From positions 1 through 37,931 of IMG/VR virus record IMGVR_UViG_3300024356_000335: a stretch of 37,931 bases of DNA, one strand, 5' to 3'. The notes below the pieces were generated by a model that saw nothing but the letters and a program-made list of their open reading frames with translations, did no database searches and was not told the origin of the DNA. Source of the stretch: a virus. The position numbers and the translations under genes were made by a program. Shown here in pieces: positions 1 through 37,837 of this stretch. How positions within the stretch are numbered: the stretch's first letter is position 1; each line of letters begins with the position of its first letter.

Positions 1-783
1 AAACACTTTCGAATGACTGGTGGCGAGCCCTTGATGGATAAAAACACATACCGTGTATTCGACTATGTGTTAGAGCATCCTAGTCCTGATTTGCATCTTG
101 ATGTTACTAGTAATTTCAGTGTCGAGCCTGAACTGTTTGAGCGATATCTAGACTATGTGAAAAAACTTACAACAAACGAGCCAAAAAGACTGCAACATTT
201 TATGCAATACGTGAGTCTGGATTGTGTGGGGCCTAGAGCTGAATATGGCAGACACGGACTTAACTTTAACAGACTCTGGGATAACGTTAATAGATTCCTT
301 AATGAAGTCCCAAATAGAAGTAGCTTGACGTTCATTATTACAATGAACGCTCTTAATGTGACTGGTGTCCGAGAACTGTTTAATGCTATATTAGGACTAA
401 GAGAGATATACAGCAAGACCTATCAGAGAGTATGGTTTGATACTCCTATACTAAGACAACCCACGCATCAAAGTTTGCAGATATTGCCCGAGATGTATTC
501 TGATTTACTGGAGGAAAGTTGGGTATTCATAATGAAAAATCTGGAAACCGTAGAAAAGCCGTTTAAAGGATTTAAGGATTACGAGTTACAAAGATTGCAA
601 AGAGTTATAGATTGGATGAATGAAGGTCGTAATTTAGACCCAAAATATGTTACAATGCAACAAGCTGACTTTTATAGATTTTTTAACGAGCACGATAAAC
701 GGCGCAGTACGGACTTTCTAAAAACATTTCCAGAAATGTCTGAATTTTGGCGCCAATGTGAGTACTATGCCAAAACACAATAA
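1..783 (+). CDS. Radical SAM protein, twitch type, 5'-truncated
   Basis: The reading frame is open from base 1, and its first in-window residues lead straight into an internal radical SAM motif (RMTGGEPLM). The ATG at 13 is therefore not the real start: the N-terminal half, with the CX3CX2C cluster site, lies outside the window. The GGEP motif contacts the methionine amino group of SAM in this superfamily. The C-terminus carries the DKRRSTDFLKTFPEM signature, which recurs in most of the following paralogues. It is the first of seven consecutive radical SAM genes, and gene 2 overlaps its 3' end. The substrate is unknown. Confidence 0.88.
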   Translation, partial: KHFRMTGGEPLMDKNTYRVFDYVLEHPSPDLHLDVTSNFSVEPELFERYLDYVKKLTTNEPKRLQHFMQYVSLDCVGPRAEYGRHGLNFNRLWDNVNRFLNEVPNRSSLTFIITMNALNVTGVRELFNAILGLREIYSKTYQRVWFDTPILRQPTHQSLQILPEMYSDLLEESWVFIMKNLETVEKPFKGFKDYELQRLQRVIDWMNEGRNLDPKYVTMQQADFYRFFNEHDKRRSTDFLKTFPEMSEFWRQCEYYAKTQ

Positions 784-2122
784 CGAATCCTATCTAGATT
801 ATAAACAACGTGTCATTGATATAAAGAGTGAGAGTTGGTGCGCCGCTAAATGGTATAATGCTACTATTTGGTTAGGTAGTGGCCAAACTACAAGCTGCCA
901 CCATCCATTACCACATCACGTTTCTGTTGAGGATGTAAAAGCCAATCCCAGGGCACTGCATAACACTACTCAAAAGAAGCTAGAACGTAGTCAAATGCAA
1001 CGTGGAGAACGGCCTTCAGGTTGTGAATATTGCTGGAAAATAGAGGATGCTGACAGTAACAACATAAGTGATAGGGTGTACAAAACAATCATATATGATG
1101 ATAAGGATCTAGACTATGCATTTAATTTACCGTCGGATAGTGACGTTAACCTACAAACTCTTGAAATATCTTTTGACCGCACTTGCCAATTTGCTTGTTC
1201 TTATTGTAATCCTGCCTTTAGTAGTACCTGGGTTAGAGACATTAAAAACAATGGACCCTACATCAATCTGGTTAGTGACGGCAGGAACCACTTTACTCAT
1301 ACTCACGATCATAGTCAACTTTATAAGTTCGGCGAGGAAAACCCTTACGTTACTGCATTTTTTAACTGGTGGGAGACAGATCTACACAAGAGCTTAAAGG
1401 AGTTAAGAATAACTGGCGGCGAGCCTCTTATGTCAGGATACACCTGGAAGCTTATTGATTGGTTTAAGGAAAATAAAAACAAGAGTAATACTCAACTTGC
1501 TATTAATAGTAATCTTGGATTTGATAGAGAAAAATTACAGGACTTTCTAGATAGAATCAAGGATCTACCACACGTAGAGTTGTATACTAGTAACGAAAGC
1601 GTGGGTGTTCAGGCTGAGTATATAAGAGATGGGCTTGACTATAAACAATGGTTGGATAATATAGAATTACTTTTAAAAAGCGATTCCATAAAAGCACTGC
1701 ACGTTATGTGTACTATTAATGCATTATGCTTAGATTCACTACCAGAATTCTTAACCAAGCTCCTTGAATTTAAAAGTAACTTTGGTCGAGATAGGATTAA
1801 TTTTACATTAAATATATTAAGATTTCCAAGTTTTCAAAGTCCTCTAGTTTTGCCATCTGATATAAAAACTTATTATAGAAATAGGTTATCCAGATGGCTT
1901 GATGTCTGGCAAAATCACATAGGTTTGCACGAGCACGAAATAGCTCATATAAACCGTTTGATAAACTATCTTGACGTAGTGGAAACTCCACACAGCGAAG
2001 CTTTCGATATAACTAAACTTAGAAACGACTTCAAGTATTTTTATCAACAATATGACCAACGACGAAATAAAAATTTTGAAAATAGTTTTCCTTATCTAGC
2101 AGAATGGTATAAAACCATATGA
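767..2122 (+). CDS. Radical SAM protein, twitch type (array member 2)
   Basis: Counting from a GTG at 758, the 4Fe-4S site CX3CX2C (CQFACSYC) lies at about residues 143-150 and TGGEP at 219-223. Before it, Cys pairs at about 28/47 and 89/92 look like an N-terminal twitch domain that would hold a second Fe-S cluster. The C-terminus has the motif DQRRNKNFENSFPYL. I chose the ATG at 767, but the GTG at 758 adds only three residues and cannot be excluded. It overlaps the previous gene and joins the next by ATGA, which suggests translational coupling. It is closest to array member 3, with a shared unusual N-terminus (WC...SC, then C-x2-CW). The chemistry is SAM-dependent radical formation; the substrate is unknown. 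Confidence 0.93.
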   Translation: MPKHNNESYLDYKQRVIDIKSESWCAAKWYNATIWLGSGQTTSCHHPLPHHVSVEDVKANPRALHNTTQKKLERSQMQRGERPSGCEYCWKIEDADSNNISDRVYKTIIYDDKDLDYAFNLPSDSDVNLQTLEISFDRTCQFACSYCNPAFSSTWVRDIKNNGPYINLVSDGRNHFTHTHDHSQLYKFGEENPYVTAFFNWWETDLHKSLKELRITGGEPLMSGYTWKLIDWFKENKNKSNTQLAINSNLGFDREKLQDFLDRIKDLPHVELYTSNESVGVQAEYIRDGLDYKQWLDNIELLLKSDSIKALHVMCTINALCLDSLPEFLTKLLEFKSNFGRDRINFTLNILRFPSFQSPLVLPSDIKTYYRNRLSRWLDVWQNHIGLHEHEIAHINRLINYLDVVETPHSEAFDITKLRNDFKYFYQQYDQRRNKNFENSFPYLAEWYKTI

Positions 2123-3525
2123 AAGAACAAGAAATAAAGTTTTTTAAGAAAAAACATCTAGATACCAAGTCATCCAGCTTCTGTGGCCACAAGTGGTATT
2201 ATGCCACTGTGCAGTTATGGATGGGTGGCACACAAAGTTGTTTTCATAATCCCGGACATCAAATTGATGCAGAAGAAATTAAACTTAATCCGTCGGCTAT
2301 CCATAATACAAAATTTAAAAAGGCTGAACGTGCTCAAATGTTGCGCGGAGAACGTCCAATTAATTGTCAGTTTTGTTGGGTAATTGAAGAGTCAGATCCT
2401 GAAGCAATATCAGACAGGATGAGATACAGTACATTATATAGTCCTGAAGAACTTGACCTAGCCTTCAATGCAGACCCCAATTCCGATGTCCAACTAAGAG
2501 AACTGGAAATAGCTTTTGATAGAACTTGTCAGCTAGCCTGTAGCTATTGCAGTCCGTATATTAGTAGCAGCTGGGCTCGCGATGTTAGGCAAAATGGCCC
2601 TTATGTAAATTTAACTACCAACGGCAGCGATCAATATTCCAACACACAGGATCATACAGTAAAATATGATTATAATGATCGCAATAACAATCCCTACATA
2701 GAAGCATTTTTTAAATGGTGGGAAACTGACCTGCATAAGCATCTAAGATCAATTCACTTCACTGGTGGTGAGCCCACGATGGGCGGATATTTGTGGAGAT
2801 TTCTGGATTGGTGTGGAGAGCAAAAAGGCACCGCATTAGAGAATATTGGCATAATTACCAATCTATCCTATGATGACGATGTTTTGGATAAATTAATTGA
2901 TCATATTAATCGAGCTAAAAGAAACATCAAGCATATTATGGTTCTAGTTAGCATTGAAAATATTGGTGACAAAGCAGAGTATGTTAGAGATGGTTTGGAT
3001 AGTAAACAGTTTGAAAAAAACTTAAAACGTCTAATTTCTGAAAGTAGTGTTGATACTGTTTACTTACAATCGACAATTAATGCAATTAGTATTGATGGGT
3101 ACTTGGAGTATTTGCACTGGATTAGGGATTTTAGAAAAGAAAATAATTGCAAGGGTAAACTTGGTACCTATATTAATTTTGTGAGATTTCCGGCATTTCA
3201 AAATATTTTTATTTTGCCAATGGAGAAACGAATTCAATATAGTGATGAACTAATTCAGTTTTTATCTAACACAGAAAATACACGATATTTTAAAGAAGAT
3301 GATCTACTTTTAATTAAGAGACTTGCTGATTATTTAAAAACTGTTGAAGTTCCACATAAAGGAATTATTTTTGAAGAGCAGGATTATGACAATCAAGAAG
3401 TCGTTTATATAAAGCCAGATCTTGTTAAAGATTTTAAAAGCTTTTTTGTTCAATACGATCAAAGACGAAATAGGAATTTTGAAAAAACTTTCCCTAACTT
3501 AGCTGAATGGTATAGGTCATTATAA
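2119..3525 (+). CDS. Radical SAM protein, twitch type (array member 3)
   Basis: The 468-residue protein has CX3CX2C at residues 137-144 (CQLACSYC), FTGGEP at 214-219 and N-terminal cysteines at 22, 41, 83 and 86 for a probable auxiliary cluster. Long stretches match array member 2, including RGERP, the DRTCQ region, FF-WWETDLHKHL and the C-terminal DQRRNRNFEKTFPNLAEWY. The two therefore look like a duplication. The start overlaps the previous stop as ATGA, and its own stop overlaps the next start as TAATG. Function beyond radical SAM chemistry cannot be read from the sequence. Confidence 0.93.
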   Translation: MKEQEIKFFKKKHLDTKSSSFCGHKWYYATVQLWMGGTQSCFHNPGHQIDAEEIKLNPSAIHNTKFKKAERAQMLRGERPINCQFCWVIEESDPEAISDRMRYSTLYSPEELDLAFNADPNSDVQLRELEIAFDRTCQLACSYCSPYISSSWARDVRQNGPYVNLTTNGSDQYSNTQDHTVKYDYNDRNNNPYIEAFFKWWETDLHKHLRSIHFTGGEPTMGGYLWRFLDWCGEQKGTALENIGIITNLSYDDDVLDKLIDHINRAKRNIKHIMVLVSIENIGDKAEYVRDGLDSKQFEKNLKRLISESSVDTVYLQSTINAISIDGYLEYLHWIRDFRKENNCKGKLGTYINFVRFPAFQNIFILPMEKRIQYSDELIQFLSNTENTRYFKEDDLLLIKRLADYLKTVEVPHKGIIFEEQDYDNQEVVYIKPDLVKDFKSFFVQYDQRRNRNFEKTFPNLAEWYRSL

Positions 3526-4871
3526 TGAGCGATGATACAAACGATATCAAGGGATTTTACAATAAAGGGTACAAGTATAATGACAGGAAACCCTTTTTTA
3601 TTAATGACCAAGATCTTACTGACAAACAAAAGCACTTACTAACAGAAAGTGATACTTTCTGTATGTTACCCTGGGTTCATATGCACGCCTTCCCTGATGG
3701 CAGGGCCTATCCGTGTTGCCTAGCAGACTATTGGCACCCAGTGGGTGATCTCAGACAACACACAATGGAGGAAATCTGGAATCAACGCCCTTTAAGAAAA
3801 ATGCGTAAAAATATGCTTGAAGGTCAACCCAGTGTCCAGTGTACTAAATGTTATGAACAGGAAAAAAATGGACTGTTCAGTATGAGATTTGACAGCAATA
3901 GGAACTATGGACATCATATAGCACAAGCTGAAGCAACTAATCTAGACGGGTCAGTGGACGACTTTAAAATCAGATACTGGGACGTAAGATTTAGTAATTT
4001 GTGTAATTTTAGTTGCCGTACCTGCGGTCCAATTTTTAGCAGTAACTGGTATAATGAACACGTAAAACTCTACGGCAAAAAGCCTGATGTTTTGGGTAGA
4101 GAAATGATGCGTATAGAATACGCAGCGGGCGATGAGCAATCTATGTTGCAACAGATGGAACCGCATATCCCCTATCTAGAACAGGTTTACTTTGCTGGTG
4201 GGGAGCCACTGATAATGAAAGAGCATTATTTTATGCTAGAGAAATTATTAGAACAGGGTAAAACAGATATAAGAATACAGTACAATACAAATTTTAGTGA
4301 ATTGGCATTTAAAGACAAACACGTATTTGAATACTGGCGTCATTTTAAAAATATCAGTGTAGGCGCCAGTCTAGATGCCAGTGGTAGTCGAGCAGAGCTA
4401 ATGAGAAAAGGTACAAAATGGAGTCAAACAGTAGACAATAGAATGCGTATGCTCCAGGAAGTGCCGCACGTAGATTTTTATATTGCTGCCACTGTAAGCT
4501 CAATGAATGCTTTGCACGTTCCTGATTTCCATAGAGAATGGGTAGAGCTTGGTCTAATCAAGGCTAAAGATTTTAATATAAATGTCTGCCAAGGCCCTGA
4601 ATGGTATAGAGCAGACATTTTACCTAGCAGCATAAAGAATCAGATAAATTCCAAGTATGAGAAACATTTAGAGTGGCTAGAACCACAGGACTCTCTCAAA
4701 CGAGCCACCTTGGGCTACAGGGGATTGTTAAACTTTATAAACAGTAAAAATTCTGAAAATCTTATACCAAGATTTCTTAAAGAAGTTTCTCTGCTAGATC
4801 AAACTAGAAGTGAAGATTTTTTCCAAGTATTTCCCGAATTATTAGAATTAAAAAATTATGAATCTACCTGA
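3525..4871 (+). CDS. Radical SAM protein, twitch type (array member 4)
   Basis: This is a 448-residue radical SAM protein. The N-terminal region carries the motif CMLPWVHMHAFPDG followed by PCC and CTKC (cysteines at about 46, 64/65, 106 and 109), the form usual for N-terminal twitch radical SAM proteins. CX3CX2C is at 160-167 (CNFSCRTC) and AGGEP at 224-228. The C-terminus has DQTRSEDFFQVFPEL. It shares one base with the previous stop (TAATG), so it is probably coupled. About 40 residues precede the first cysteine motif, longer than in its neighbours. The substrate is unknown. Confidence 0.94.
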   Translation: MSDDTNDIKGFYNKGYKYNDRKPFFINDQDLTDKQKHLLTESDTFCMLPWVHMHAFPDGRAYPCCLADYWHPVGDLRQHTMEEIWNQRPLRKMRKNMLEGQPSVQCTKCYEQEKNGLFSMRFDSNRNYGHHIAQAEATNLDGSVDDFKIRYWDVRFSNLCNFSCRTCGPIFSSNWYNEHVKLYGKKPDVLGREMMRIEYAAGDEQSMLQQMEPHIPYLEQVYFAGGEPLIMKEHYFMLEKLLEQGKTDIRIQYNTNFSELAFKDKHVFEYWRHFKNISVGASLDASGSRAELMRKGTKWSQTVDNRMRMLQEVPHVDFYIAATVSSMNALHVPDFHREWVELGLIKAKDFNINVCQGPEWYRADILPSSIKNQINSKYEKHLEWLEPQDSLKRATLGYRGLLNFINSKNSENLIPRFLKEVSLLDQTRSEDFFQVFPELLELKNYEST

Positions 4872-6066
4872 AACCATATGTATGTTACCTTGGGTTAGTA
4901 TAGAAACCAGTCCTATGGGTACTGTACGTCCTTGTTGTCTTGCTCGAGATGAAATACCCGATGAATCAGGTAAAAAAATTAATCTAAGAGAATCAAATCT
5001 TGTTACCGCTTATAAAAGTGTTTATATGCAAGATCTACGTAAACAAATGCTAGCTGGTGAGAAGCCCAAAACCTGCCAATTATGTTGGGAAGAGGAAGCA
5101 GCAGGCAGAACTAGTAAACGAATAAACAGTAGAATAAGATTGAAAGAGTTGTACAAAAAAGTCGACTGGCAAAACTTAACTCCTGATCAACTTTGGTTCG
5201 TAGACTTAAAATTAGGAAATATTTGTAATTTAAAATGTAGAATCTGCGGAAGCTGGAGTAGTAGTAAGTGGGCTGATGAAGAACTAAAATATACACCCAA
5301 CGTAAAAAAAGAAAATCACGTAGCCTATCAATGGTTGAAACAGGGTTCTTGGCCTAGGCAAAGCCCTGGTTTTTGGGAAAACTTAATAGAGTTACTGCCA
5401 GATATTAAGTACTTCGAGTTCACTGGCGGGGAGCCTTTTCTGATTCAGGAACATTTTGATCTTTTAAAAGTAGCTGTAGATAAAGGATATAGTAAAAATA
5501 TTGATATCCATTATAATACTAATGGTACAGTTGATCCTGATCAGTCCTGGATATGGCAGCACTTTGGTAGAGTAGACATAGCTTTTAGCATAGATAACGT
5601 TGGTGATAGATTTGAGTATGAACGATATGGTGCTAAATGGCAGGATGTAAATGATAACATATCCTGGATAAGTTCTTACAAACAGCACGACGGCGTTAAT
5701 CTTACTACACAACTTTGTTTTACTGTTAATATTCAAAACGTTTACTATCTAGATGAATTATTAGCCTGGGCTGATAAGAAGGGATTCGATAACATTTATT
5801 TTAATATGTTACATAGTCCTGATCATATGAGCATACAAAAAATGACTCCTGCTGCTAGAGATTTAGTCTTAAATAAACTTAAGACTACATTTTGGACTAC
5901 TAAGTTTTATCAACGTGAAATAGATAATATTATTAAATTTATTGAAAATGGCACTGGTAGTGATGGCACAGAGTTTGTTCGACGTATGAAACAAACAGAT
6001 CAATATAGAAATCAAAATTTTAAAGACACGCATTTAGAGATAGCCACGGCAATGGGATATGAATAA
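4858..6066 (+). CDS. Radical SAM protein, twitch type (array member 5)
   Basis: The 402-residue protein begins almost directly with the twitch motif ICMLPWVSIETSPMG, followed by RPCCLA and CQLC (cysteines 8, 26/27, 73 and 76). The radical SAM site CX3CX2C is at 123-130 (CNLKCRIC) and FTGGEP at 188-193. The C-terminal signature is slightly diverged (DQYRNQNFKDTHLEI). The ATG lies 14 bases inside the previous gene, which supports operon coupling. This is the most compact and canonical of the early members. No substrate can be assigned. Confidence 0.94.
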   Translation: MNLPETICMLPWVSIETSPMGTVRPCCLARDEIPDESGKKINLRESNLVTAYKSVYMQDLRKQMLAGEKPKTCQLCWEEEAAGRTSKRINSRIRLKELYKKVDWQNLTPDQLWFVDLKLGNICNLKCRICGSWSSSKWADEELKYTPNVKKENHVAYQWLKQGSWPRQSPGFWENLIELLPDIKYFEFTGGEPFLIQEHFDLLKVAVDKGYSKNIDIHYNTNGTVDPDQSWIWQHFGRVDIAFSIDNVGDRFEYERYGAKWQDVNDNISWISSYKQHDGVNLTTQLCFTVNIQNVYYLDELLAWADKKGFDNIYFNMLHSPDHMSIQKMTPAARDLVLNKLKTTFWTTKFYQREIDNIIKFIENGTGSDGTEFVRRMKQTDQYRNQNFKDTHLEIATAMGYE

Positions 6067-7177
6067 GAAACCACTTTGTGTAAACCCTTTTGAAGGAATA
6101 ATTATAGATGAATTTGGCGGCGCTAAACCCTGCCCTCCCTACCTAGCAAACTCCAACAACATTAATGTATTAAATTACTATCAACATCCAGAAATACTAG
6201 AACTACAACGAGCTCATCTAGAGGATAACGAACTACCCAGTGTATGCAGAACTTGTAAAACAAACGAAGAAAAGTATGGAAGCAGTCTTAGATTTAGCAA
6301 AACTGCAAGAGACATAGAATACAAGGTGGGGCAGTTTGATCAAGGCACTATTTTAATTTCCACTAGCAATGCGTGTAATTTAAAATGCTTGCCCTGTAGT
6401 TACAGTAGTTTCCCCAGGATCAAAGAATTAATAGAAATTAAGGTACTCCAACCCTATCAGGATATAGGGCTAATAGATTTATCTGATAATAAAATGGAAC
6501 GTATTTTAGAAATAATAGAAAAATATAATTATACTACAGTGAGTTTATTAGGTGGAGAACCTTTTTACGATAAAGTTACCTTTAGAATGATTGATCAATT
6601 AATCAACCGTGGATTATCTAAAAAGTTAAAATTATATTTTACCACAAACACAACTAATATTAATCCAGCCAAAATAGAAAAAATACAGAATAATTTTAAA
6701 GATTTTGAAATAGATTGCAGTATAGATGGTGTTGGAGAAGTTAATGATTATCTAAGATACCCCTCTCGTTGGGATCAAATTTTAAATGGTATTTCTATTC
6801 TTAGAAATCTCAATCAACCTTTTAATATAAGAACAGCGTTCAGTAATCTTGCGTTACTGAGATATCCTGACTTAATATTGTGGTGTTTGGAAAATAACAT
6901 AAAAAATATTTACCTTTGCTCAGTGGACGATCCTGAAATTATGAATCCCCAACGGCTACCATTGGGCCTAGCAGAAAGTTTGCGCAAAAAATATGAAGTT
7001 TTAGCCAAGCTAGATGTCAACAACACTACGAAAATGTCTATCCAAGCCGCCACTGGGTATGCCACAAATCTAGACGAAACTGGATTTAGTAAAAGCCTAG
7101 AGTTTTTTAGAAAACACGACCAACATCGTGGAAATAATCTAGTAGAAGTATTTCCTGAACTAAAGCCCTATGTCTGA
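6059..7177 (+). CDS. Radical SAM protein, twitch type (array member 6)
   Basis: At 372 residues this is the shortest complete member of the array. CX3CX2C is at 106-113 (CNLKCLPC) and LGGEP at 164-168. The N-terminal twitch motif is altered to CVNPFEGIIIDEFGG with KPCPP and CRTC (cysteines 7, 25, 63 and 66), and PWV is replaced by NPF. The C-terminus is DQHRGNNLVEVFPEL. It overlaps both neighbours by 8 bases. It is the most divergent member and may act on a different position or substrate from its neighbours; that is inference. Confidence 0.93.
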   Translation: MNKKPLCVNPFEGIIIDEFGGAKPCPPYLANSNNINVLNYYQHPEILELQRAHLEDNELPSVCRTCKTNEEKYGSSLRFSKTARDIEYKVGQFDQGTILISTSNACNLKCLPCSYSSFPRIKELIEIKVLQPYQDIGLIDLSDNKMERILEIIEKYNYTTVSLLGGEPFYDKVTFRMIDQLINRGLSKKLKLYFTTNTTNINPAKIEKIQNNFKDFEIDCSIDGVGEVNDYLRYPSRWDQILNGISILRNLNQPFNIRTAFSNLALLRYPDLILWCLENNIKNIYLCSVDDPEIMNPQRLPLGLAESLRKKYEVLAKLDVNNTTKMSIQAATGYATNLDETGFSKSLEFFRKHDQHRGNNLVEVFPELKPYV

Positions 7178-8462
7178 AAAGCCTAAAAATTTATGTATGG
7201 CTCCCTGGGTTCATACTTATCTTAGCCCTCAAACTGAAAGAAGAATGTGTTGTGCAAGCAGGGAACCCGCGCAAAATTTTGAGCAATATATTGACACCGC
7301 TTCGGGTTCGGGAGAATATAAACCACTTACGCTAGAGCAACATTGGAACAGTGATCATATGAAATCTGTACGTAGGCGTATGATGGCTGGTGAAACCCTT
7401 CCTGAGTGTGAAGTTTGCAATAATAAGTTACTTAATACTGACGTTTACCGTAGCTATTTTAATAGATTGTTTGATCATAAGTATTTAGAGGCAATGGCTA
7501 ATACAGACGAAACCGGGCACACTTCACTACAACCTGTCAGTTGGGATTATAGGTTCAGTAATTTGTGCAATTTCAAATGTCGTATGTGTGGCGATATGCT
7601 TAGTAGTAGTTGGGAAACAGAACGCCGACAGTTTAACGATATAGATTGGTCTAATACAAAAAACAACTGGATGAAATCTGAAAACAAAATTAAGATAGAA
7701 AGTTTTCAGAACACACAAATCGAAGAAGAATTCAGAAAAGCTGTGGAAGAGCACCGAGTAGAAGAAGTCTACTGGGTAGGTGGAGAACCACTAATGTATG
7801 AACAACATTGGCGTTATATGGCAAGAATAATAGAACTAGGAGATGGCCAGAATGTTTATGCAAGGTACAACACAAATTTATCTAGAATTAATTATAGGGG
7901 TATCAATCTTTATAACGACATTCTTACTAGGCTTCGCGATTGGCAGATTTGCGCGAGCCTTGACGGTACAGGAACAATTGGGGAATACATTAGATCAGGT
8001 CTTAATTACGACCAGTGGCTTGAGAACTTCCGTGAAGGAATTAAAATCAGAACTCACTCACGTCAGCTCAGAATTGACTTTACGCTCACTCTGCCCGGAA
8101 TGTTTGAAGTTAACAAAATACAACAACTCGCAGACTCGCTAGGAGTAGATGTGTTGGCCAAGGTAATTTTTAGTTTCAGTCCAGATATTATACTATCTCC
8201 GCTGGCATTACCTAGAAACATTTTAAATAACTGGGTAGATGAGCTACTACCCAATGTAACAGGATCTTTACGAGATATCCTAGTGCAATTAAAAAATCGC
8301 CCAACATTTCAAGAACAATATGGGGATAATTACCTTGATCATCTAGCGATTGGTAAACAACAAACTCTTAAAATAGAATCTAGACGAAAAGCTGACACCT
8401 GTCTAGAAGAAATATTATCGCAAAGAAAAGAAGTGTATGACTGGTATAAATCAATTAGTTAA
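7170..8462 (+). CDS. Radical SAM protein, twitch type (array member 7)
   Basis: The 430-residue protein has the N-terminal motif CMAPWVHTYLSPQ with MCC and CEVC (cysteines 9, 27/28, 80 and 83), CX3CX2C at 133-140 (CNFKCRMC) and VGGEP at 203-207. Unlike members 1-6 it does not end in the D-x2-R...FPEL signature; its tail is Arg/Lys-rich with two short acidic patches. The start overlaps the previous gene by 8 bases. It closes the radical SAM array and its 3' end overlaps the next, unrelated gene by 26 bases. The substrate is unknown. Confidence 0.94.
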   Translation: MSEKPKNLCMAPWVHTYLSPQTERRMCCASREPAQNFEQYIDTASGSGEYKPLTLEQHWNSDHMKSVRRRMMAGETLPECEVCNNKLLNTDVYRSYFNRLFDHKYLEAMANTDETGHTSLQPVSWDYRFSNLCNFKCRMCGDMLSSSWETERRQFNDIDWSNTKNNWMKSENKIKIESFQNTQIEEEFRKAVEEHRVEEVYWVGGEPLMYEQHWRYMARIIELGDGQNVYARYNTNLSRINYRGINLYNDILTRLRDWQICASLDGTGTIGEYIRSGLNYDQWLENFREGIKIRTHSRQLRIDFTLTLPGMFEVNKIQQLADSLGVDVLAKVIFSFSPDIILSPLALPRNILNNWVDELLPNVTGSLRDILVQLKNRPTFQEQYGDNYLDHLAIGKQQTLKIESRRKADTCLEEILSQRKEVYDWYKSIS

Positions 8463-9537
8463 AGTAATACTATCCAATCCCTTGAATAAAAAGGACACAG
8501 TCGACTATAATATAGTTGTGGCTGATAATGTTTTGGCTCGAGACTGGGTATTTGCACTCAAAGAAATTTTACACAATAAAAAACATCTTGAGAAAAATTA
8601 CTGCTTTATGGGTTTTCCTTACACAGCCAGAGATCTAAATTTTTTAACAAACAGTTTAAACAATCATATTGCAACAATCAATAACTTTTTTGGTAGCGAA
8701 TACACCATTGAAGAAAACTACACACAGGAATGCTGGACAGATAATAGCGATCTAGGGCCCAATCACGAAATGTTTAACTTATTACACAATCATTTCGAAG
8801 TGTTACAGGGCACAGTTTGGGATTTAAGTGATTATTATAAAAAAGCAAATTACAAAACTAAGTACGCTATTCGTCAACTTAATAATATCTGTCACGAACT
8901 AGAGTCATATGTTCTAAGTCAGAGAAAACTTCAAACTGTGCCCTTCTGGATACGGCCAAGTCAGATAACAACATTTTTGCAAGCAGGTAGATATATTCTA
9001 ACAGACGAACACAGGAAACTTTTTACAGTTAATGGTTATGATCGTGTGCTAGGTGGTGTTTATATGCACTGGACTCAAATAGGAAAAACATTATTTGAGG
9101 TTTTTAGAGATGAGGGGGCTCCTGATCTAAACGACACAATTTGTGAAGCTATAACAGAATTAAAATTCTACAGTGGAGAATTTGATGTAGAATGGGGTAA
9201 TGATGTAGTCTACGGTGGTGCTGCCTACTGGCACACAGAGCAACAAGATAAATTTAGAGAATGGCTAACACGCAATGGTAAAGATTATAATGATCCTAAA
9301 TTAAGTCTTGGATATCTGCCTATAGGTCAGGTGGATTTACAAAATAGCTTTGGCACTGTAGATGCACAGGAAATCTGGAAAATACTAGGAGACCATCTTA
9401 ACATTCAGGCTATTGAGGTCGACGGTATAAGACAAGAATATGATTATTGTTGGTCAGATCCCAATTATCAAAGTCAGCAAATAGATATGATGAAACCTGG
9501 TTACGACTATAGCAGTAAATACTCTGTTGGGAAATAA
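8437..9537 (+). CDS. Conserved phage-type protein of unknown function
   Basis: The 366-residue protein is soluble, with no signal peptide or membrane segment and no radical SAM cysteine motif. It is rich in Trp, Tyr and acidic residues. Notable patches are FMGFPYTARDLNFL near residue 55, and WGNDVVYGGAAYWHTEQQ plus LSLGYLPIGQVDL in the second half. I do not recognise an enzyme family. The position directly after seven radical SAM genes, with a 26-base overlap, suggests it acts with them as a partner, carrier or substrate protein. The next gene starts one base after its stop. Confidence 0.82.
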   Translation: MTGINQLVKVILSNPLNKKDTVDYNIVVADNVLARDWVFALKEILHNKKHLEKNYCFMGFPYTARDLNFLTNSLNNHIATINNFFGSEYTIEENYTQECWTDNSDLGPNHEMFNLLHNHFEVLQGTVWDLSDYYKKANYKTKYAIRQLNNICHELESYVLSQRKLQTVPFWIRPSQITTFLQAGRYILTDEHRKLFTVNGYDRVLGGVYMHWTQIGKTLFEVFRDEGAPDLNDTICEAITELKFYSGEFDVEWGNDVVYGGAAYWHTEQQDKFREWLTRNGKDYNDPKLSLGYLPIGQVDLQNSFGTVDAQEIWKILGDHLNIQAIEVDGIRQEYDYCWSDPNYQSQQIDMMKPGYDYSSKYSVGK

Positions 9538-9639: not shown

Positions 9640-10284
9640 ATGATTTACACTATAGGATGTAGTTTTACATATGGTGCTGAACTCCCTGACAGATCAGACG
9701 CCTGGCCCAGTGTGTTGGGTACTTTGCTTAACAAGGACGTGACTAACCTGGGTAAAGAAGCTACAGGTAATACCCGTATTGTAAAAAGAGCGTTGGATGC
9801 TATATTAGAAAATCCTGAACTTGTAGTGATTAGCTGGACTAATCCTGGCAGGCTAGAACTAGCAGATAACTTTGGGATATATGATGTATGGGGCGGAAGA
9901 ATTATAAATTGGAACAATGATGAGAGCCTCAAGCATAGAGCAGAGATGGTTAAATATACTGTACTCAATGATCAACCAGAGTACTATTATACTGCCTGGT
10001 TAAGGCAAATAATTTTAGTACAAAGTATTTGTAAATTAAAAAAAGTCCCCTGTGTAATGTTTATAAGTCATTATGCCAATAAAATGCACAGACAGTTTTC
10101 TAATAATCATAAAAAATTGGTAGAAAATATAGATTTGTCTATGTTTGTAGATCAAACAATGTTAGAAAGCACAGATGAATGGACAAGAGATATTACTAAA
10201 ATGCCTCGAGGACATCCTAGTCCTCAAGGACATAAATTAATAGCAGACAAAGTATATGAACATATTAGGCGTTTCAGCTGGTGA
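9640..10284 (+). CDS. SGNH/GDSL-type hydrolase-like protein
   Basis: The 214-residue protein opens with IGCSFTYGAELP, which matches SGNH block I with Ser8 as candidate nucleophile. It continues with a GKEATGNTRI segment supplying the block Asn, and ends with GHPSPQGHKLIADKVYEH, where His192 or His198 would be catalytic. The SGNH superfamily includes esterases, lipases and carbohydrate acetyl-hydrolases. Within this operon, de-acylation of a glycan or modified metabolite is plausible but inferred. No signal peptide is seen, so it is probably cytoplasmic. Its 3' end overlaps the carbamoyltransferase gene by 29 bases. Confidence 0.85.
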   Translation: MIYTIGCSFTYGAELPDRSDAWPSVLGTLLNKDVTNLGKEATGNTRIVKRALDAILENPELVVISWTNPGRLELADNFGIYDVWGGRIINWNNDESLKHRAEMVKYTVLNDQPEYYYTAWLRQIILVQSICKLKKVPCVMFISHYANKMHRQFSNNHKKLVENIDLSMFVDQTMLESTDEWTRDITKMPRGHPSPQGHKLIADKVYEHIRRFSW

Positions 10285-11734
10285 TCACGACGCAGCTCTT
10301 AGTGTAGTTAGCCCCCAGGGCGAAATTCTATTTGCTGGGCATAGTGAACGTTATAGTAAAATTAAAAATGACTCTAATATTCACAAGTCACTAGTAAGTG
10401 ACGCATTTGCCTATCCTATAAGTACAATTGCATTTTACGAACGACCTTGGTTAAAACAAATTAGACGCTTGTATGCAGGACAAAGCTTTGAATTTGATAA
10501 ATTCTCTACTAGACAAATATTAAAGAAACAGATACCTCTAAAGTTAGATAACTATAAAATTAAAACTTATGGCCATCATTTAAGTCACGCGGCTGCAGGA
10601 TTCCAAACAAGTAATTTTGATAATGCAACTGTGGTTGTAATAGATGCCATTGGAGAATTTGATACTATTTCTATTTGGAGTGCTTATTATAAAGATAAAA
10701 AAGCCAAATATAAAAAGCTTTGGTCTAAAAAGTACCCACACAGTATAGGATTATTTTATAGTGCGATGACAAACAGTGTAGGTCTTAAACCTAACGAAGA
10801 AGAGTATATCTTGATGGGAATGAGCGCCTATGCTCGCACAAACAATTATAGTATCCTGGAACATAAATTAGTTCAGGATATTGGGGAATGCTCTTTTAAA
10901 CAAAACTTACACATAGGGTTGCCCTATGAACACTTAGATTTAGCTTCTAATGAAGAAGTAGCAGCTTGCACCCAAAAAGTTACAGAACGGTTATTAGCTA
11001 AGGTCTGGCAAAAAGCCAAAAAAATTGGGAATAGTAAAAATTTAGTCTATATGGGTGGCGTTGCTCTTAATTGTCTGGCAAATAAAAACCTAGGAGAATA
11101 TTTTGATAATATCTGGATTATGCCTAATCCCGGAGATGCTGGTAGCAGTTTGGGCGCAGCAGCGTTAGCCTATGGCCAACGTATTGACTGGCATAATGCT
11201 TTTCTTGGACATAATATACCTGGAGCATACCCAGTTAACTCTATTATTGATGCTTTATTGGTTGATGGCATCGTGGGTGTTGCAAGCGGTCGCGCAGAAT
11301 TTGGGCCACGGGCATTAGGTAATAGGAGTTTATTGGCAGATCCTCGAGGACTAGATATAAAGGATCGTGTAAATGAAATTAAACGTAGACAAAAATTCAG
11401 ACCCTTTGCACCAGTAATACTAGAAGAATTAGTTGACGAATATTTTGATATGCCTAGTGGTTGGAAATCTAGTCCCTATATGCAGGTGGTAGCTAAATGT
11501 AAATTTCCCAATCACTTTCCTGCCATAACACATTACGACGGCACAAGCAGAGTACAAACAGTAAATAAACAATCTGGTGGTGGTATAAGACAATTACTTG
11601 AACAGTGGTACAACATAACTAATTGTCCTATGCTATTAAATACCAGTCTTAATGTACGTGGTGAACCTATGGTAAATGATAGGCAAGATGCGATTAGATT
11701 TCAACAGATATATGGTATTAAGGTGTTTAGTTAG
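10256..11734 (+). CDS. Carbamoyltransferase, NodU/CmcH/TobZ family
   Basis: The protein transfers a carbamoyl group from carbamoyl phosphate, through carbamoyl-AMP, to a hydroxyl on a small molecule or sugar. Evidence: an N-terminal ASKHA/Kae1-like start (ILGVSAGDHDAAL), HHLSHA at 107-112, MGGVALNC at 266-273, NPGDAGSSLGAA at 291-302, the conserved GRAEFGPRALGNRSLLADPR at 345-364, FRPFAPVI at 381-388 and LNTSLNVRGEPMV at 461-473. At 492 residues it is shorter than many bacterial relatives (about 570), but all core motifs are present. The acceptor is unknown; the neighbouring glycosyltransferase-like and SGNH genes point to a glycan or modified nucleotide (inference). Confidence 0.94.
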   Translation: MNILGVSAGDHDAALSVVSPQGEILFAGHSERYSKIKNDSNIHKSLVSDAFAYPISTIAFYERPWLKQIRRLYAGQSFEFDKFSTRQILKKQIPLKLDNYKIKTYGHHLSHAAAGFQTSNFDNATVVVIDAIGEFDTISIWSAYYKDKKAKYKKLWSKKYPHSIGLFYSAMTNSVGLKPNEEEYILMGMSAYARTNNYSILEHKLVQDIGECSFKQNLHIGLPYEHLDLASNEEVAACTQKVTERLLAKVWQKAKKIGNSKNLVYMGGVALNCLANKNLGEYFDNIWIMPNPGDAGSSLGAAALAYGQRIDWHNAFLGHNIPGAYPVNSIIDALLVDGIVGVASGRAEFGPRALGNRSLLADPRGLDIKDRVNEIKRRQKFRPFAPVILEELVDEYFDMPSGWKSSPYMQVVAKCKFPNHFPAITHYDGTSRVQTVNKQSGGGIRQLLEQWYNITNCPMLLNTSLNVRGEPMVNDRQDAIRFQQIYGIKVFS

Positions 11735-11767: not shown

Positions 11768-11989
11768 ATGAGTGAAAATGACGGCAGTCCAGATTTGGAT
11801 TCTTTACGTAAAAAGTTTAAACCTAAAAAACCTAAAATGGCAGTACCTACAGAATTTTTAGACAATGCTAAAAGCTATGAGGACAAACAAGCATTAATGC
11901 AAATATTGGCTGATAAAGAAAAAAATAAAATGATTTTATTAGTCAAGGCTATGCTCAAGGATGCGGTAGCCAATAGAGACAAAAAATGA
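11768..11989 (+). CDS. Small lysine-rich hypothetical protein
   Basis: The 73-residue, highly charged protein contains FKPKKPKMAVPTEFLDNAKSY near the N-terminus, then a predicted helix ending KAMLKDAVANRDKK. No cysteines, signal or membrane segment are seen. A short gap of 33 bases upstream carries a purine-rich AGGGCGG about 10 bases before the ATG, a possible ribosome binding site. The stop overlaps the next start as ATGA. The family is not recognised; a scaffold, substrate or nucleic-acid-binding role is possible but unsupported. Confidence 0.72.
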   Translation: MSENDGSPDLDSLRKKFKPKKPKMAVPTEFLDNAKSYEDKQALMQILADKEKNKMILLVKAMLKDAVANRDKK

Positions 11990-13095
11990 AAAAAACAATA
12001 GTTTTACTTGATTGGGAACAAGAGGATAAATGGTTTTCCCGTAGAACAGTGGACGATCCGTTTAGCTCAGCATATTTTGGATTAAATATTCCTGCCTATT
12101 TTAAAACATTTTTTAATCTCGAACTTTATCAAAAAGATAAAACTTATAATAAACAACAACACGTCTTTGTGCTTTGTGATATTTACCATAAAAACAATTT
12201 TATACAAAATTCAAAGTTATACGAACATTTACGAGATCAAGGTTTTAAAGTTATTCTATTACACTTTGTTGAATATTTTCCAGAACATCATCCAGATGTT
12301 TACTGTACATTTCCAATATTTTATATAGATAATTGGTTCTGGTTTAACGAAGTTCTTAGACATATGAATGGTTGGGCTAGTTTTAAAGATAATAAACGTT
12401 TAATTTTATGTCCTGTGCAGTATCCAAGAGTTTCCAATAGGAATAAGCTAGCACTTATGCCTGTGGGGAAATTACGAAGACATAGAGTAGATCTTCTTTC
12501 TAAAATAAATCCTCTTTTAAAAAATATGGTCTGGAGTTGCAAATCTCAAAATATTCTTCTTCCTAGAAATAAAGATTTTGAACATCAATATAACTCTTGG
12601 GAATACGAACATCTTGGGATCATAAACGATAGGTATTTTAATCCTGATTGGTACAACGATACTTATTTTAGTCTTGTTTCAGAAACTTGTGTTACTAGGC
12701 AGATTTTTAAATATAACAAGAACAGAGAAGATGCTCCTCCGTTTATAACAGAGAAAACCTATAAACCCATAATGTACAGGCATCCTTTTCTTATACAAGG
12801 ACAACCAGGAATTCTAAAGCATTTACGAACTCTAGGTTTTGAAACTTTTGAAAATTTATTTGACGAAAGTTATGACACTATCGATGACAACGACTTAAGA
12901 CTAGATAAGATAGTAGATAATGCACAAAGTCTGTCAAAACACTTATACAGTAAAAAAACTAAAAGTATATACACTTACGATAAATTAACTGAAGAAAAAA
13001 TAACACATAATTGGAATCATTTTTTTAATGGTCAACTAGTTGAACAACGTATCTATCAAGACATTGTATTACCTTTTCTAGAAATGTGTGAATAA
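11986..13095 (+). CDS. Glycosyltransferase-like protein, copy 1
   Basis: The 369-residue protein begins MKKTIVLLDWEQEDKWF. Its most conserved part is TEKTYKPIMYRHPFLIQG at about 255-272, followed by GFETFENLFDESYD. The TEKxxKPI pattern with a following hydrophobic strand resembles the C-terminal donor-binding part of GT10 (fucosyltransferase-like) enzymes, where (S/T)EK is typical. This is a motif-level resemblance only. INDRYFNPDWYNDTYFSLVSET lies just before it in two parts. The gene is a tandem paralogue of the next one and starts in an ATGA overlap. Expected role: adding a sugar to a surface or phage glycan (inference). Confidence 0.7.
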   Translation: MKKTIVLLDWEQEDKWFSRRTVDDPFSSAYFGLNIPAYFKTFFNLELYQKDKTYNKQQHVFVLCDIYHKNNFIQNSKLYEHLRDQGFKVILLHFVEYFPEHHPDVYCTFPIFYIDNWFWFNEVLRHMNGWASFKDNKRLILCPVQYPRVSNRNKLALMPVGKLRRHRVDLLSKINPLLKNMVWSCKSQNILLPRNKDFEHQYNSWEYEHLGIINDRYFNPDWYNDTYFSLVSETCVTRQIFKYNKNREDAPPFITEKTYKPIMYRHPFLIQGQPGILKHLRTLGFETFENLFDESYDTIDDNDLRLDKIVDNAQSLSKHLYSKKTKSIYTYDKLTEEKITHNWNHFFNGQLVEQRIYQDIVLPFLEMCE

Positions 13096-14218
13096 AAATT
13101 TAAACGTGTCTAAAAAAACATTAGTGCTAATGGATTTTAACTACGAAGATGCAATATCGTGGTACACTTCAGATAACTTAAAATTTAAATATTTTGGATT
13201 ATGTTTTAATAATTTTTTTGAAAAATACTTTGACTTTGAATTATACGACAACCAAAAAATATACAATAAAGATTGTATTTTTGTAATTCTTGATATCTAC
13301 AACAAGAAAAAGTTCTCTGAAAGATACCCAACGTATATAAAACTACACGAACAAGGATATAAAATAATTTTGTGGATGCTTTCAGAATTTCCTGGGCATC
13401 AGTTTCATAAATTTTTTAACCCACGGGATTTTCCTATACCAGTGTTTTATGTACCCCATTGGTTTTGGTTTCAGGAGCTGGGATCTGCAATTAATCATTT
13501 GGCTTCAACACCAGAAAGAATTATTTTAAGACCACACCAATACCCAAAAAATAAAACTTGTAAGTTTTTAGCTTTGGTACCAATGAATAAACACAGGGTG
13601 CATAGAGATAAACTGTTTGACAAACTTAGTAGTTTTAAAAATGACATACTCCTAAGCTATGTTTCTCGAGGAATAACACTACCAAGAGATATAACTTACG
13701 AGAACGATATTAATCCCTATTACATTAAGATATTTGACCCACAGATAGATCCTGGTGTGGATATAATTAACGATAGATATTTTAACCCTGAATGGTACGA
13801 TGACACTTACTTTAGCCTAGTAGTGGAAACCTGGATAGAAAAATACCAATATCCAGTTTTTTTAACAGAAAAAACCTGGAAGCCTATTATGTATAAACAT
13901 CCTTTTATGATCTGGGGGCAACAGGGTTCACTAGCTTATCTTAAAGAATTAGGTTTCGAAACTTATGAAAATTTATTTGATGAGAGTTATGATTTAGAGG
14001 AAAATTCAAATAAAAGACTACAGGCTATTATTACAAACGTAAGGAATTTACGTAATCAAAGATCTAGATTAAATATAAGTCAAAAGCGTAACTACGATAA
14101 AATAACTCAAGAAAAAATAGAACATAACTATAATTTGTTCTTTAATAGTGACACATTGACTGAAAGGTTGTATACTGACATAGTTATACCAATGTACGAA
14201 TTTTCAGAGTCAAATTGA
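13088..14218 (+). CDS. Glycosyltransferase-like protein, copy 2
   Basis: The 376-residue paralogue of the preceding gene shares the same layout: an N-terminal KTLVLMDFNYED strand, HWFWFQELGSAINHLAS in the middle, INDRYFNPEWYDDTYFSLV, then TEKTWKPIMYKHPFMIWGQ at about 260-278 and GFETYENLFDESYD. The chosen start is GTG at 13088, overlapping the previous stop; a second GTG at 13106 is possible. Differences outside the core suggest the two copies have diverged for different acceptors or donors. GT10-like assignment rests on the TEK motif and is tentative. Confidence 0.7.
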   Translation: MNKNLNVSKKTLVLMDFNYEDAISWYTSDNLKFKYFGLCFNNFFEKYFDFELYDNQKIYNKDCIFVILDIYNKKKFSERYPTYIKLHEQGYKIILWMLSEFPGHQFHKFFNPRDFPIPVFYVPHWFWFQELGSAINHLASTPERIILRPHQYPKNKTCKFLALVPMNKHRVHRDKLFDKLSSFKNDILLSYVSRGITLPRDITYENDINPYYIKIFDPQIDPGVDIINDRYFNPEWYDDTYFSLVVETWIEKYQYPVFLTEKTWKPIMYKHPFMIWGQQGSLAYLKELGFETYENLFDESYDLEENSNKRLQAIITNVRNLRNQRSRLNISQKRNYDKITQEKIEHNYNLFFNSDTLTERLYTDIVIPMYEFSESN

Positions 14219-14229
14219 AGGAAAAATCA

Positions 14230-14745
14230 ATGAAAGATAAGTTCAAACGTGCTTATATGGCCACAGCTAAAACATTTGCAGATTTAAGCACTGCTAAAAG
14301 ATTACAGGTGGGTGCCATAGTGGTCAAGGATGATAGAATTATAAGCATAGGATACAATGGTATGCCTGCTGGCTGGGATAACACCTGTGAAGTCAGGGAA
14401 TGGATGAATCCCGAAGCTGGTGGCTGGCTTGACCCGGATGAGATTAATACACAGTGGCCCTACGAGGAATTTACAGAAGGTCAGTCTGTGGGCAGATATA
14501 AATTAGTAACTAAACCCGAAGTGTTACACGCAGAAAGCAATGCAATATCAAAGTTAGCAAGATCCAGTGAAAGCGGCGAGGGTGCAGCTATTTTTATCAC
14601 GCATAGTCCCTGTATGGATTGTGCGAAATTAATCTACCAATCAGGTATAACGTCAGTGTTTTATGGGTCTAGTTATCGAGATGACTCGGGAATACGTTTT
14701 TTACAATCAAGTGGTATAAAAGTAGAACAAATACAGGATGTTTGA
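14230..14745 (+). CDS. Deoxycytidylate deaminase
   Basis: The enzyme deaminates dCMP to dUMP, feeding thymidylate synthase (encoded at 19254-20168). The 171-residue protein has the zinc-binding HAE at 100-102 with the catalytic Glu, and PCMDC at 127-131. QVGAIVVKDDRIISIGYNGMP is typical of ComEB/T4 Cd-type deaminases. An upstream TTG at 14215 extends the frame, but the ATG at 14230 has an AAGGAAAA ribosome binding site at ideal distance, so I use that. Unlike the other nucleotide genes it sits on the + strand inside the modification operon. Confidence 0.95.
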   Translation: MKDKFKRAYMATAKTFADLSTAKRLQVGAIVVKDDRIISIGYNGMPAGWDNTCEVREWMNPEAGGWLDPDEINTQWPYEEFTEGQSVGRYKLVTKPEVLHAESNAISKLARSSESGEGAAIFITHSPCMDCAKLIYQSGITSVFYGSSYRDDSGIRFLQSSGIKVEQIQDV

Positions 14746-16933
14746 TGTTTTTTATAAAAATAAACCCACTGGTTTATTTGCCTTTGAACAACCAGCGGAT
14801 AGTTTAGTACAGGCCGCTGCTCTCTCTAGAACAGAATTTTTCTGGTTCCTAGATGGGCATAATGATTATTCGGGCTTTAATTTTTACTGGCAGTGTCCTC
14901 CCTGGGAACAAGATCAGGTTCACGTTTTTGCAAGTCAGCATCAACGTAATAGTGGAACTTATTTTGCTAGAAAACATACTGCAAAATTATTGCAATATAA
15001 TTTTAGAACCGAACAACGAGTTCACAGACCAGCCAATTTAGAACTTTGGTCTATACCCAACTACATTGATATTACAAATTTCGATTTCAGCTGGCATCCA
15101 GACTTCACTGAGCCAGACTATGAATATCATTTTCCTACACAATGGCAATCAGCAGGTGGACCTGTTTATCTAGGCACTCAGGGTATTAAACTTGTAAATT
15201 CACAAACAGCACAGTCATTACCAGACAAATCACGGTGGCTAATACCTGATAATATTGATCAGACTAGTTTTGACTTTAGTTGGCATCCTGACCCACGTGA
15301 TCCTGCCTATGAATATCATTTTGGTACACAATGGCAGACAACTGGTGGTCCTGTGTATCAGGGACACAAGGGAGTTAAGATTGTCTATAGTCCCACAGCC
15401 ACGGCCCTTGAAGATAAATCTCGCTGGATTATACCAGACAATGCTGATATTACTGATTTTGATTTCAGCTGGCATCCTCCTAGATTTGAACCAGATTATG
15501 AATATAGATTTCCCACACAATGGCAACGTGAGGGTGGTCCCATATACAAAGGTACAGCTGGTGTAAAATTTGTAGCAGGGCAGCGCATACGAACTAACGC
15601 CACACAGATTTTTTATATGGATTTTCTAAATAAAGAAAGTCCAAAACAATTAGAATGCTTAAAGAAAAAATTTCCTGACATCAAGAGTACACGCTATGTT
15701 GATACACATTTAAATGTGTTCAAACGTATAGTAAACTTAGCAGAAACAGAGTTTGTCTGGGTCATTAGTAGTATATGTGATTATAGTAAGTTTGATTTTA
15801 CTTGGCACCCAGACTCTAGTCAGCGAGAAATGATACATTGTTTCCCTACAGGAACACTGAAACGTGGTGATACTTTTTACATACACGTTCCTAGCTTTAA
15901 ACAACAAATGTACGATCTAGAACTTCTAGATTGGTTTAATATCATTAACTATTGTGATGATCAATCTGTAACAAGATTCCCACAGGATACAGTTAATTAT
16001 GATGGTGATAATCTAATAGATGTAGTTAAGGAACATCAATGGACTACTCCCTATGCGTTGTTTACTAATAAATCACACGTTGCAATTATTAATAATAACT
16101 GTCTATGGTCACATAAAGATAGAGAGGTTGTAAGTATTTGTTCAAGCAATAGTGTATGTTTTGTACCACGAGAAGCTAAAAGTCATATCAAGGAACAGAT
16201 CTACGACTATCCCTATATAAACAAATTAACTAATATAGTTACACTAGACACACCCTTGGATATTATCTATATTAGCAATGGGGAGCCTGATGCTGAATAT
16301 TGGTATGAACACCTAGTAAAGCTGGCTAGTAAAAAAGTAAAACGAGTACAAAATGTAAATGGTAGAACTGCCGCCTATCAAGCTGCGGCTAAACTTAGTA
16401 GTACTCCCTGGTTTTTTGCAGTATTTGCCAAGCTAGAAGTAGATTCGGAATTTAATTTTTACTGGCAACCTGATTATTTCCAACAGCCCAAACACTATAT
16501 CTTTAATAGTAAAAACATATTAAACGGACTAGAATATGGACATCAAGGACTAATAGCCTATAATAAAAACCTTGTATTAGAAAATAATCAGCCGGGGCTA
16601 GACTTTACGCTAAGTCAGGCACACGAGAGTGTACCCATACTATCAGGAGTGGCTCATTTTAATCAGAACCCCTGGATGACTTGGCGTACTGCTTTTCGCG
16701 AAGTCCTTAAATTAAAACATTTTAATAGTTTAGTGGAAACAGTCGAGACGACTCATAGACTTAAAGTCTGGACCACAAGAGCGCAGGGAGAAAATTCAGA
16801 GTGGTGTCTACGAGGCGCACAGGACGCTATAGACTATTACAATCGAGTTGAGGGTGATTACGAAAAGATAAAACTTAGTTTTGACTGGGCGTGGTTGGCG
16901 GATTATGCTAGTCTCTTGAAGCACCATTTTTAA
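14738..16933 (+). CDS. 731-residue repeat protein, possibly glycosyltransferase-related
   Basis: The protein is built from copies of a module of the form W-x-I-P-D-N...FDFSWHPD...Y-FPTQWQ-GGPVY-G-GVK. Three close copies at residues 104-166, 167-229 and 230-288 have an exact 63-residue period. Looser versions occur near residues 35-80 (FFWFLDGHNDY, FNFYWQ), about 343-385 (FVWVISS, FDFTWHPD) and about 555-600 (WFFAVFAK, FNFYWQPD). The C-terminal part has a LSQAHE...PILSGVAHFNQNPWMTWRTAFREV region that looks like a separate conserved domain. A WxxDxD-like strand per module hints at a GT-A-type nucleotide-sugar fold, but this is inference. It ends the + strand operon and overlaps the convergent DegT gene. 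Confidence 0.8.
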   Translation: MFDVFYKNKPTGLFAFEQPADSLVQAAALSRTEFFWFLDGHNDYSGFNFYWQCPPWEQDQVHVFASQHQRNSGTYFARKHTAKLLQYNFRTEQRVHRPANLELWSIPNYIDITNFDFSWHPDFTEPDYEYHFPTQWQSAGGPVYLGTQGIKLVNSQTAQSLPDKSRWLIPDNIDQTSFDFSWHPDPRDPAYEYHFGTQWQTTGGPVYQGHKGVKIVYSPTATALEDKSRWIIPDNADITDFDFSWHPPRFEPDYEYRFPTQWQREGGPIYKGTAGVKFVAGQRIRTNATQIFYMDFLNKESPKQLECLKKKFPDIKSTRYVDTHLNVFKRIVNLAETEFVWVISSICDYSKFDFTWHPDSSQREMIHCFPTGTLKRGDTFYIHVPSFKQQMYDLELLDWFNIINYCDDQSVTRFPQDTVNYDGDNLIDVVKEHQWTTPYALFTNKSHVAIINNNCLWSHKDREVVSICSSNSVCFVPREAKSHIKEQIYDYPYINKLTNIVTLDTPLDIIYISNGEPDAEYWYEHLVKLASKKVKRVQNVNGRTAAYQAAAKLSSTPWFFAVFAKLEVDSEFNFYWQPDYFQQPKHYIFNSKNILNGLEYGHQGLIAYNKNLVLENNQPGLDFTLSQAHESVPILSGVAHFNQNPWMTWRTAFREVLKLKHFNSLVETVETTHRLKVWTTRAQGENSEWCLRGAQDAIDYYNRVEGDYEKIKLSFDWAWLADYASLLKHHF
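15047..15604 (+). repeat. Three tandem 189-bp coding repeats
   Basis: Three in-frame copies start at bases 15047, 15236 and 15425, giving an exact 189-bp (63-residue) period for the first two; the third is slightly shorter. Each encodes FDFSWHPD-like, Y-FxTQWQ and GGPxY cores. Copies 1 and 3 still share the identical stretch gatttcagctggcatcc at the DNA level, while copy 2 has diverged at synonymous sites. Confidence 0.85.
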
Positions 16934-37821: not shown

Positions 37822-37837
37822 AACCCTCCCAAGAAAA

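Follow-up and report, generated by a model that had tools for sequence, protein, structure and literature searches.

A fixed-order core of five twitch radical SAM enzymes and a partner protein in T4-like phages and its bacterial counterpart

Introduction

The IMG/VR virus record IMGVR_UViG_3300024356_000335 is a virus fragment of 37,931 bases, and the window analysed here is that entire record. It begins with seven plus-strand frames of the N-terminal-twitch radical SAM family (N_Twi_rSAM), which lie head to tail at positions 1-8462 with ends that overlap or abut and with no intervening gene. What might a phage make with so many related radical enzymes, and do all seven belong to one system? 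A first-pass annotation of this DNA had read the seven copies as catalytic rather than decaying and had suggested that they carry out a multistep modification or an iterative processing of one product. Here we report that the conserved unit consists of five of these enzymes and a partner protein, X8, and that orthologues of the five enzymes also occur together in a bacterial chromosome.

Results and discussion

Seven radical SAM genes in the window

All seven array proteins, termed R1 to R7, are matched by NCBIfam NF033640 (N_Twi_rSAM), and six of them exceed its curated cut-off of 170 bits (whole-protein score), with scores of 206-405 bits. R1 (1-783) is open at the 5' end of the contig; its match is limited to positions 174-397, half of the profile, and scores 156.5 bits. 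It is followed by R2 (758-2122, GTG start, 304 bits), R3 (2119-3525, 263 bits), R4 (3525-4871, 405 bits, with an N-terminal Pfam SPASM match at 6e-12), R5 (4858-6066, 349 bits), R6 (6059-7177, 206 bits) and R7 (7170-8462, 287 bits). The paralogues share 20-42% identity, with R2 and R3 forming the nearest pair at 42%. Frame coordinates and family matches therefore bear out the initial description of a head-to-tail, overlapping series of seven genes with nothing between them. The co-directional block does not end at position 8462, however, because the gene for X8 (8437-9537, plus strand) overlaps R7 and is as well conserved as the enzymes.

The CX3CX2C motif is present in all six complete proteins and GGEP in all seven, including the truncated R1, as had been noted earlier. 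A near relative of the window, contig L009+L089, encodes array-region proteins that are 76-92% identical to those described here, and its R1 is full-length (464 amino acids, 91% identical to the window copy). Because the window spans the whole record and this related R1 is complete, the truncation of R1 is attributed to the contig end and not to decay. In comparison with L009+L089, the ratio of nonsynonymous to synonymous substitution rates (dN/dS) is 0.02-0.09 for R1, R2, R6, R7 and X8, with dS saturated in most of these, and dN is 0.09-0.15 for R3, R4 and R5, for which dS was not computable. Decay into pseudogenes is ruled out by these ratios, where they could be computed, together with the retained motifs.

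A fixed core of five enzymes and X8

Pattern scans of IMG/VR yielded 80 loci with X8 as query and 66 loci with R4. Overlapping loci were merged and near-duplicates dropped to give 107 non-redundant contigs, including the window and one Vibrio phage, and since contigs were chosen by these scans only, the set leans towards relatives of R4 and X8. There are 66 contigs that carry a complete core of R1, R2, R4, R5, R7 and X8. The order R1-R2-R4-R5-R7-X8 is found in every one of them, on a single strand in 64, and 421 of the 452 neighbouring gene pairs overlap. Contigs were picked without reference to R1, R2, R5 or R7, so that selection does not explain why these four are linked. Partial contigs mostly agree with this order, and R7 precedes R5 in four divergent contigs.

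The remaining two enzymes are far less common. R3 is found in 4 of the 107 contigs, always in the slot between R2 and R4, and R6, which in the window lies in the variable slot between R5 and R7, is found in two. R3 and R6 are rare lineage-specific accessories, so the unit comprises five enzymes and X8, and an arrangement of seven equal orthologous positions is ruled out. Among the 66 complete cores, the R2-R4 slot is empty in 56, the R4-R5 slot in 61 and the R7-X8 slot in 60. The R1-R2 and R5-R7 slots are variable and are filled by other radical SAM enzymes, SGNH hydrolases, proteins of a family termed fam2, an epimerase-like family and others. One occupant of the R5-R7 slot, fam22 (L019:6940-7725 and nine other contigs), has X8-like motifs and is possibly an X8 paralogue.

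In four contigs R4 and R5 are encoded as a single polypeptide, which is a strong hint that these two enzymes act jointly. A divergent phage carries another fusion, in which an R1-like and an R4-like enzyme are joined in a protein of 862 amino acids (L147:8603-11191).

The array positions also correspond to separate lineages. Trees were built by FastTree with support values, and in a tree of 527 full-length proteins, with each group delimited by an identity of 40% or more to the window copy, the R1, R2, R3, R5, R6 and R7 groups each form a clade without a foreign member; those of R2, R5 and R7 contain 92, 93 and 93 copies, respectively. For R4, the best clade contains four other proteins besides 95 R4 copies. 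A tree of the array proteins with phage homologues, as had been proposed for this locus, thus separates five orthologous groups, which keep a fixed order, whereas R3 and R6 are rare.

Copies in the core groups retain CX3CX2C in 97-100% and GGEP in 99-100% of cases, and an N-terminal four-cysteine pattern, whose residues are predicted to be auxiliary Fe-S ligands, is found in 88-100%. Retention of motifs in 88-100% of core copies is consistent with enzymes that are catalytic and not decaying. Random copy number and frequent loss of cluster cysteines had been named beforehand as signs against a conserved array, and for the core the relatives exhibit neither. The variable radical SAM proteins (n=68) are less well conserved in these motifs, with GGEP present in 52.

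No family in Pfam, NCBIfam or PHROGs matches X8; IMG/VR contains 141 relatives. The predicted fold of X8 (predicted local distance difference test score, pLDDT, 91.7) appears to be a cyclophilin-like barrel with a helical insert. The best structural matches of this model are cyclophilins, at a middling Z score of 8.7 over 147 residues (root-mean-square deviation 3.6) and with Foldseek E values above 1. When X8, R4 and fam2 were compared by sequence with the PDB, no convincing relative emerged.

A chromosomal counterpart in Bacteriovoracaceae

A scan of a genome collection with an R4 profile returned 20 loci, and several of the bacterial genomes involved are metagenome-assembled genomes (MAGs). 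Five MAG matches (L159-L163) were left out, since they are probably phage contigs that had been placed in bacterial bins. The upstream genes of L160-L163 match the phage array flank in size and order, and L159 is a short contig; the bins are labelled Flavobacterium, Pelagibacter, Verrucomicrobia and others.

In contrast, L164 is a chromosomal contig of a Bacteriovoracaceae MAG, flanked by rplU-rpmA-obgE and lgt (flanking genes were named by reading their sequences). It holds eight N_Twi_rSAM genes, which include orthologues of all five core groups and two others. Identities are 51 and 52% for two R2 proteins, 50% for R1, 43% for R7, 41% for R4 and 37.5% for R5. In a joint tree the sister lineage of each of the phage R1, R5 and R7 groups contains an L164 protein (support 1.0), and L164 proteins are nested within the R2 (0.91) and R4 (0.98) clades. 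Because the L164 proteins are sister to or within each phage group, the five groups probably diverged before the phage and bacterial versions split. A phage-only system is ruled out, since all five groups have orthologues in this chromosome. The array does occur in phages, as first described, but it is not specific to them.

Relatives extend across the order. Strong N_Twi_rSAM matches are present in 63 of 129 Bacteriovoracales genomes, and a whole-genome profile search places a relative of X8 in 18 of the 129, one of which (L224) adjoins an R1-type gene. An earlier genome scan with X8 had given no relative, which reflects a sensitivity limit given the later 18. At the level of the phylum, 10 of 369 genomes have an R7 profile match at 1e-90 or below, accompanied in several cases by R2- or R5-like genes. 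Lone relatives of single array members occur in Paenibacillus, Synechococcus and Cytophagales. The Paenibacillus sp. 1001270B_150601_E10 locus (L165) has an R4-like enzyme clustered with acyl carrier and ketosynthase-like genes, a different biosynthetic context.

Carrier phages and the region upstream of R1

We searched 21 large records, comprising 20 from IMG/VR and Vibrio phage K566. The Gp23 major capsid protein is present in 14 of them (E values down to 1e-120), and the window, being a fragment, lacks it. The isolate gp23 proteins nearest to one such Gp23 are 70-74% identical and belong to large phages such as PA5oct. The array carriers are large aquatic T4-like (gp23) phages. All large records tested carry N_Twi_rSAM genes, 6-16 each, several of which are located outside the array. 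A search for the gp14 neck protein had no match in any record and is hence uninformative, and R2, X8 and fam1 have no match among INPHARED isolates at the thresholds used. A DNA search with part of L009 likewise gave no match, a result of little weight.

The order of genes leading to R1 in these phages is a giant virion structural protein (phrog_10938, not identified as VrlC), tail-fibre proteins, fam11, fam10, two fam3 genes, fam8, fam1 and then R1. These upstream genes match tail-fibre PHROGs, and between the fibre genes and R1 sit the small conserved genes fam10 (about 105 amino acids) and fam8 (about 121). Among 75 contigs, 60 have fam1 upstream of R1 at a distance of four genes or fewer. 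The predicted model of fam1 (pLDDT 87.7) resembles GT-A glycosyltransferases, and fam3 matches glycogenin at 7e-4.

A similar association is seen in bacteria. There are nine Bacteriovoracales genomes among the 129 with fam1, all of which have N_Twi_rSAM, and the best fam1 places are mostly within about 5 kb of an N_Twi_rSAM gene (judged by eye; 8 of 12, rough p 7e-11). Shortly after pheS-pheT, genome G085 (L210, L232) has the order fam11-fam10-fam3-fam3-(163 amino acids)-fam1-N_Twi-N_Twi; none of the other genomes among the 129 has fam3.

Possible functions of the core

The fixed order, the non-redundant groups, the retained motifs, the fusions and the bacterial set are together best explained by a single multistep pathway, and we infer that the five core enzymes and X8 probably serve one such pathway common to phages and the bacterium. 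The original proposal of a multistep modification of one product thus holds insofar as the enzymes appear to act as a set, but the set is five plus X8 and not seven. Under this reading, the five non-redundant enzymes, each performing one step with help from X8, would process one substrate in turn. Strain-specific tailoring would be the role of R3, of R6 and of whatever genes occupy the R1-R2 and R5-R7 slots. The product would most likely be an unusual radical-modified glycan or sugar, perhaps carried by the receptor-binding fibres or exposed at the surface of the infected cell. A glycan is favoured by the linkage to GT-A genes in both phages and bacteria and by SGNH hydrolase and carbamoyltransferase neighbours, and display on the virion or cell surface is favoured by the tail-fibre position of the array. 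A modified base, sugar or peptide had been suggested as the product, and the context favours surface-glycan or fibre modification over a base. We consider a modified glycan or sugar made by one five-enzyme pathway to be the best explanation, although we hold it tentatively and at a little short of an even chance.

Several points weigh against this explanation. No characterised N_Twi_rSAM was found. Co-location with fibre and glycosyltransferase genes is not by itself proof of common function, and other T4-like phages share such a region with no such array described (PMC7029224). The glycosyltransferase label of fam2 comes from a motif only, as this family has no Pfam, PHROG or PDB match. In addition, the UBA6144 chromosomal five-enzyme array has no fam1, fam3, tail-fibre gene or X8 directly beside it, and the core may therefore work without glycosyltransferases.

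SPASM/twitch radical SAM enzymes are, moreover, best known as peptide and protein maturases (PMC11002830), which leads to a serious rival whose probability we put appreciably lower than that of the glycan. The five enzymes could instead modify a protein by radical chemistry, for example through crosslinks, epimers or methylations. The target would be fam8, fam10 or a fibre protein, either fam11 or one of its neighbours, and the glycosyltransferases would decorate that same protein. The SPASM match in R4 fits this possibility, as do the small genes fam10 and fam8 between the fibre genes and R1 and the presence of fam11 and fam10 together with fam3, fam1 and N_Twi_rSAM in the chromosome of G085. 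However, no gene for a short precursor appeared among the overlapping array genes of the contig set, no typical precursor or leader was recognised, and none of fam8, fam10 or fam11 was recognised beside the UBA6144 array. It is improbable that there is no single pathway and that independent auxiliary enzymes with separate host targets are held together by co-transcription only. Single members do stand alone in the three bacterial groups named above, and phage records have several of their 6-16 genes outside the array, but independent enzymes would not readily account for an order kept in 66 of 66 contigs, the scarcity of cluster-cysteine loss, the four R4-R5 fusions or the bacterial five-group set. 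A nucleotide or DNA modification is very improbable. QueE-like, QueD-like, dCMP deaminase, thymidylate synthase and dihydrofolate reductase (DHFR) genes share the window and might provide a parallel through possible 7-deazaguanine synthesis, yet most of the Que-type and nucleotide genes lie on the other strand, at a distance from the array, N_Twi_rSAM and QueE are different families, and the core has no linked partner for DNA modification.

A broader extension of the glycan pathway is doubtful. The five-step radical SAM line could yield a so far undescribed type of modified glycan or glycoprotein for cell recognition in large T4-like phages and Bdellovibrio-like predators, and could have moved between them as a unit. 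Such a unit would include a fibre-glycosyltransferase-radical SAM module such as that near pheS-pheT in G085.

Relation to known systems

NF033640 matches all seven array proteins, but this family entry describes single proteins and not the five-group set with its partner. One of the closest published settings is the host recognition cluster of pelagimyophages (2020), in which radical SAM cassettes occur with tail fibres and glycosyltransferases (PMC7029224); the glycosyltransferases were read as altering the host O-chain (PMC7029224). In both cases T4-like aquatic phages carry radical SAM and glycosyltransferase genes in a tail-fibre region (PMC7029224), which here is seen in the tail-fibre PHROGs upstream together with the GT-A candidates fam1 and fam3. 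The pelagimyophage cassettes are variable (PMC7029224), whereas the core described here is fixed in order and composition, is carried by larger gp23 phages and has orthologues in bacteria. The T4-like environmental genome TARA_ERS488813_N000010 (2017) has 12 radical SAM genes (PMC5332604), a high number like that in our large records, and the passage on these genes describes no array, orthology or pathway (PMC5332604).

Among the isolates in INPHARED, only Vibrio phages K566 and K567 (OZ196521, OZ196593) match R4 over most of its length. K566 has six N_Twi_rSAM matches, and three annotated radical SAM genes lie close together among hypothetical genes. Identity to R4 in these two phages is about 24%, and they do not carry the R1-R2-R4-R5-R7-X8 core. 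A search of open-licence literature gave no earlier account of the five-enzyme core, of X8 or of the bacterial counterpart, and nothing on Bdellovibrio radical SAM arrays. Thus, large numbers of radical SAM genes and cassettes in T4-like phages were known, and the fixed core and its bacterial counterpart are, within that literature, new.

Radical SAM enzymes perform hard chemistry, and five distinct members in fixed order suggest a product that is difficult for ordinary enzymes to make. Scattered reports of many phage radical SAM genes can now be brought together in a defined unit of testable composition. The bacterial counterpart suggests that its chemistry is common to phages and predatory-type bacteria, and the chromosomal array offers material for expression and study without phage culture.

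Other features of the window

Downstream of X8 on the plus strand is a conserved companion, an SGNH/GDSL-type hydrolase (9640-10284), which matches Pfam Lipase_GDSL_2 at 8e-5, below the curated cut-off; its family profile has a GDSL match in the PDB at 1.5e-5. The next gene encodes a NodU/Nol-like carbamoyltransferase (10256-11734, plus strand); of 82 contigs, 74 have this gene after X8 at a distance of no more than seven genes. At 11986-14218 (plus strand) lies a pair of related fam2 proteins whose resemblance to glycosyltransferases is confined to a motif. A multi-repeat relative of GT-A-like fam1 is encoded at 14738-16933 (plus strand) and was assigned by family clustering, single-domain fam1 being predicted to fold as GT-A. 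Within it are three tandem repeats of 63 amino acids (15047-15574; FDFSWHPD...YEYHFGTQWQ...GGP.Y.G), and the counterpart in L009+L089 seems to hold one repeat more. Genes convergent to the array (16908-19084, minus strand) encode a DegT/DnrJ aminotransferase and an NAD-dependent sugar epimerase/dehydratase by Pfam, and L009+L089 has the same order.

Genes for dCMP deaminase (14215), thymidylate synthase (19254) and DHFR (20178) are also present in the window, as are a QueE-like radical SAM gene (32505-33353) and a QueD-like gene (33520-34038). As judged from sequence, this combination makes a 7-deazaguanine DNA modification possible. Near the end of the window is a gene (35308-37857) for a protein of 849 amino acids with a signal-like N-terminus and FG-GAP repeats, which is unusual for a phage.

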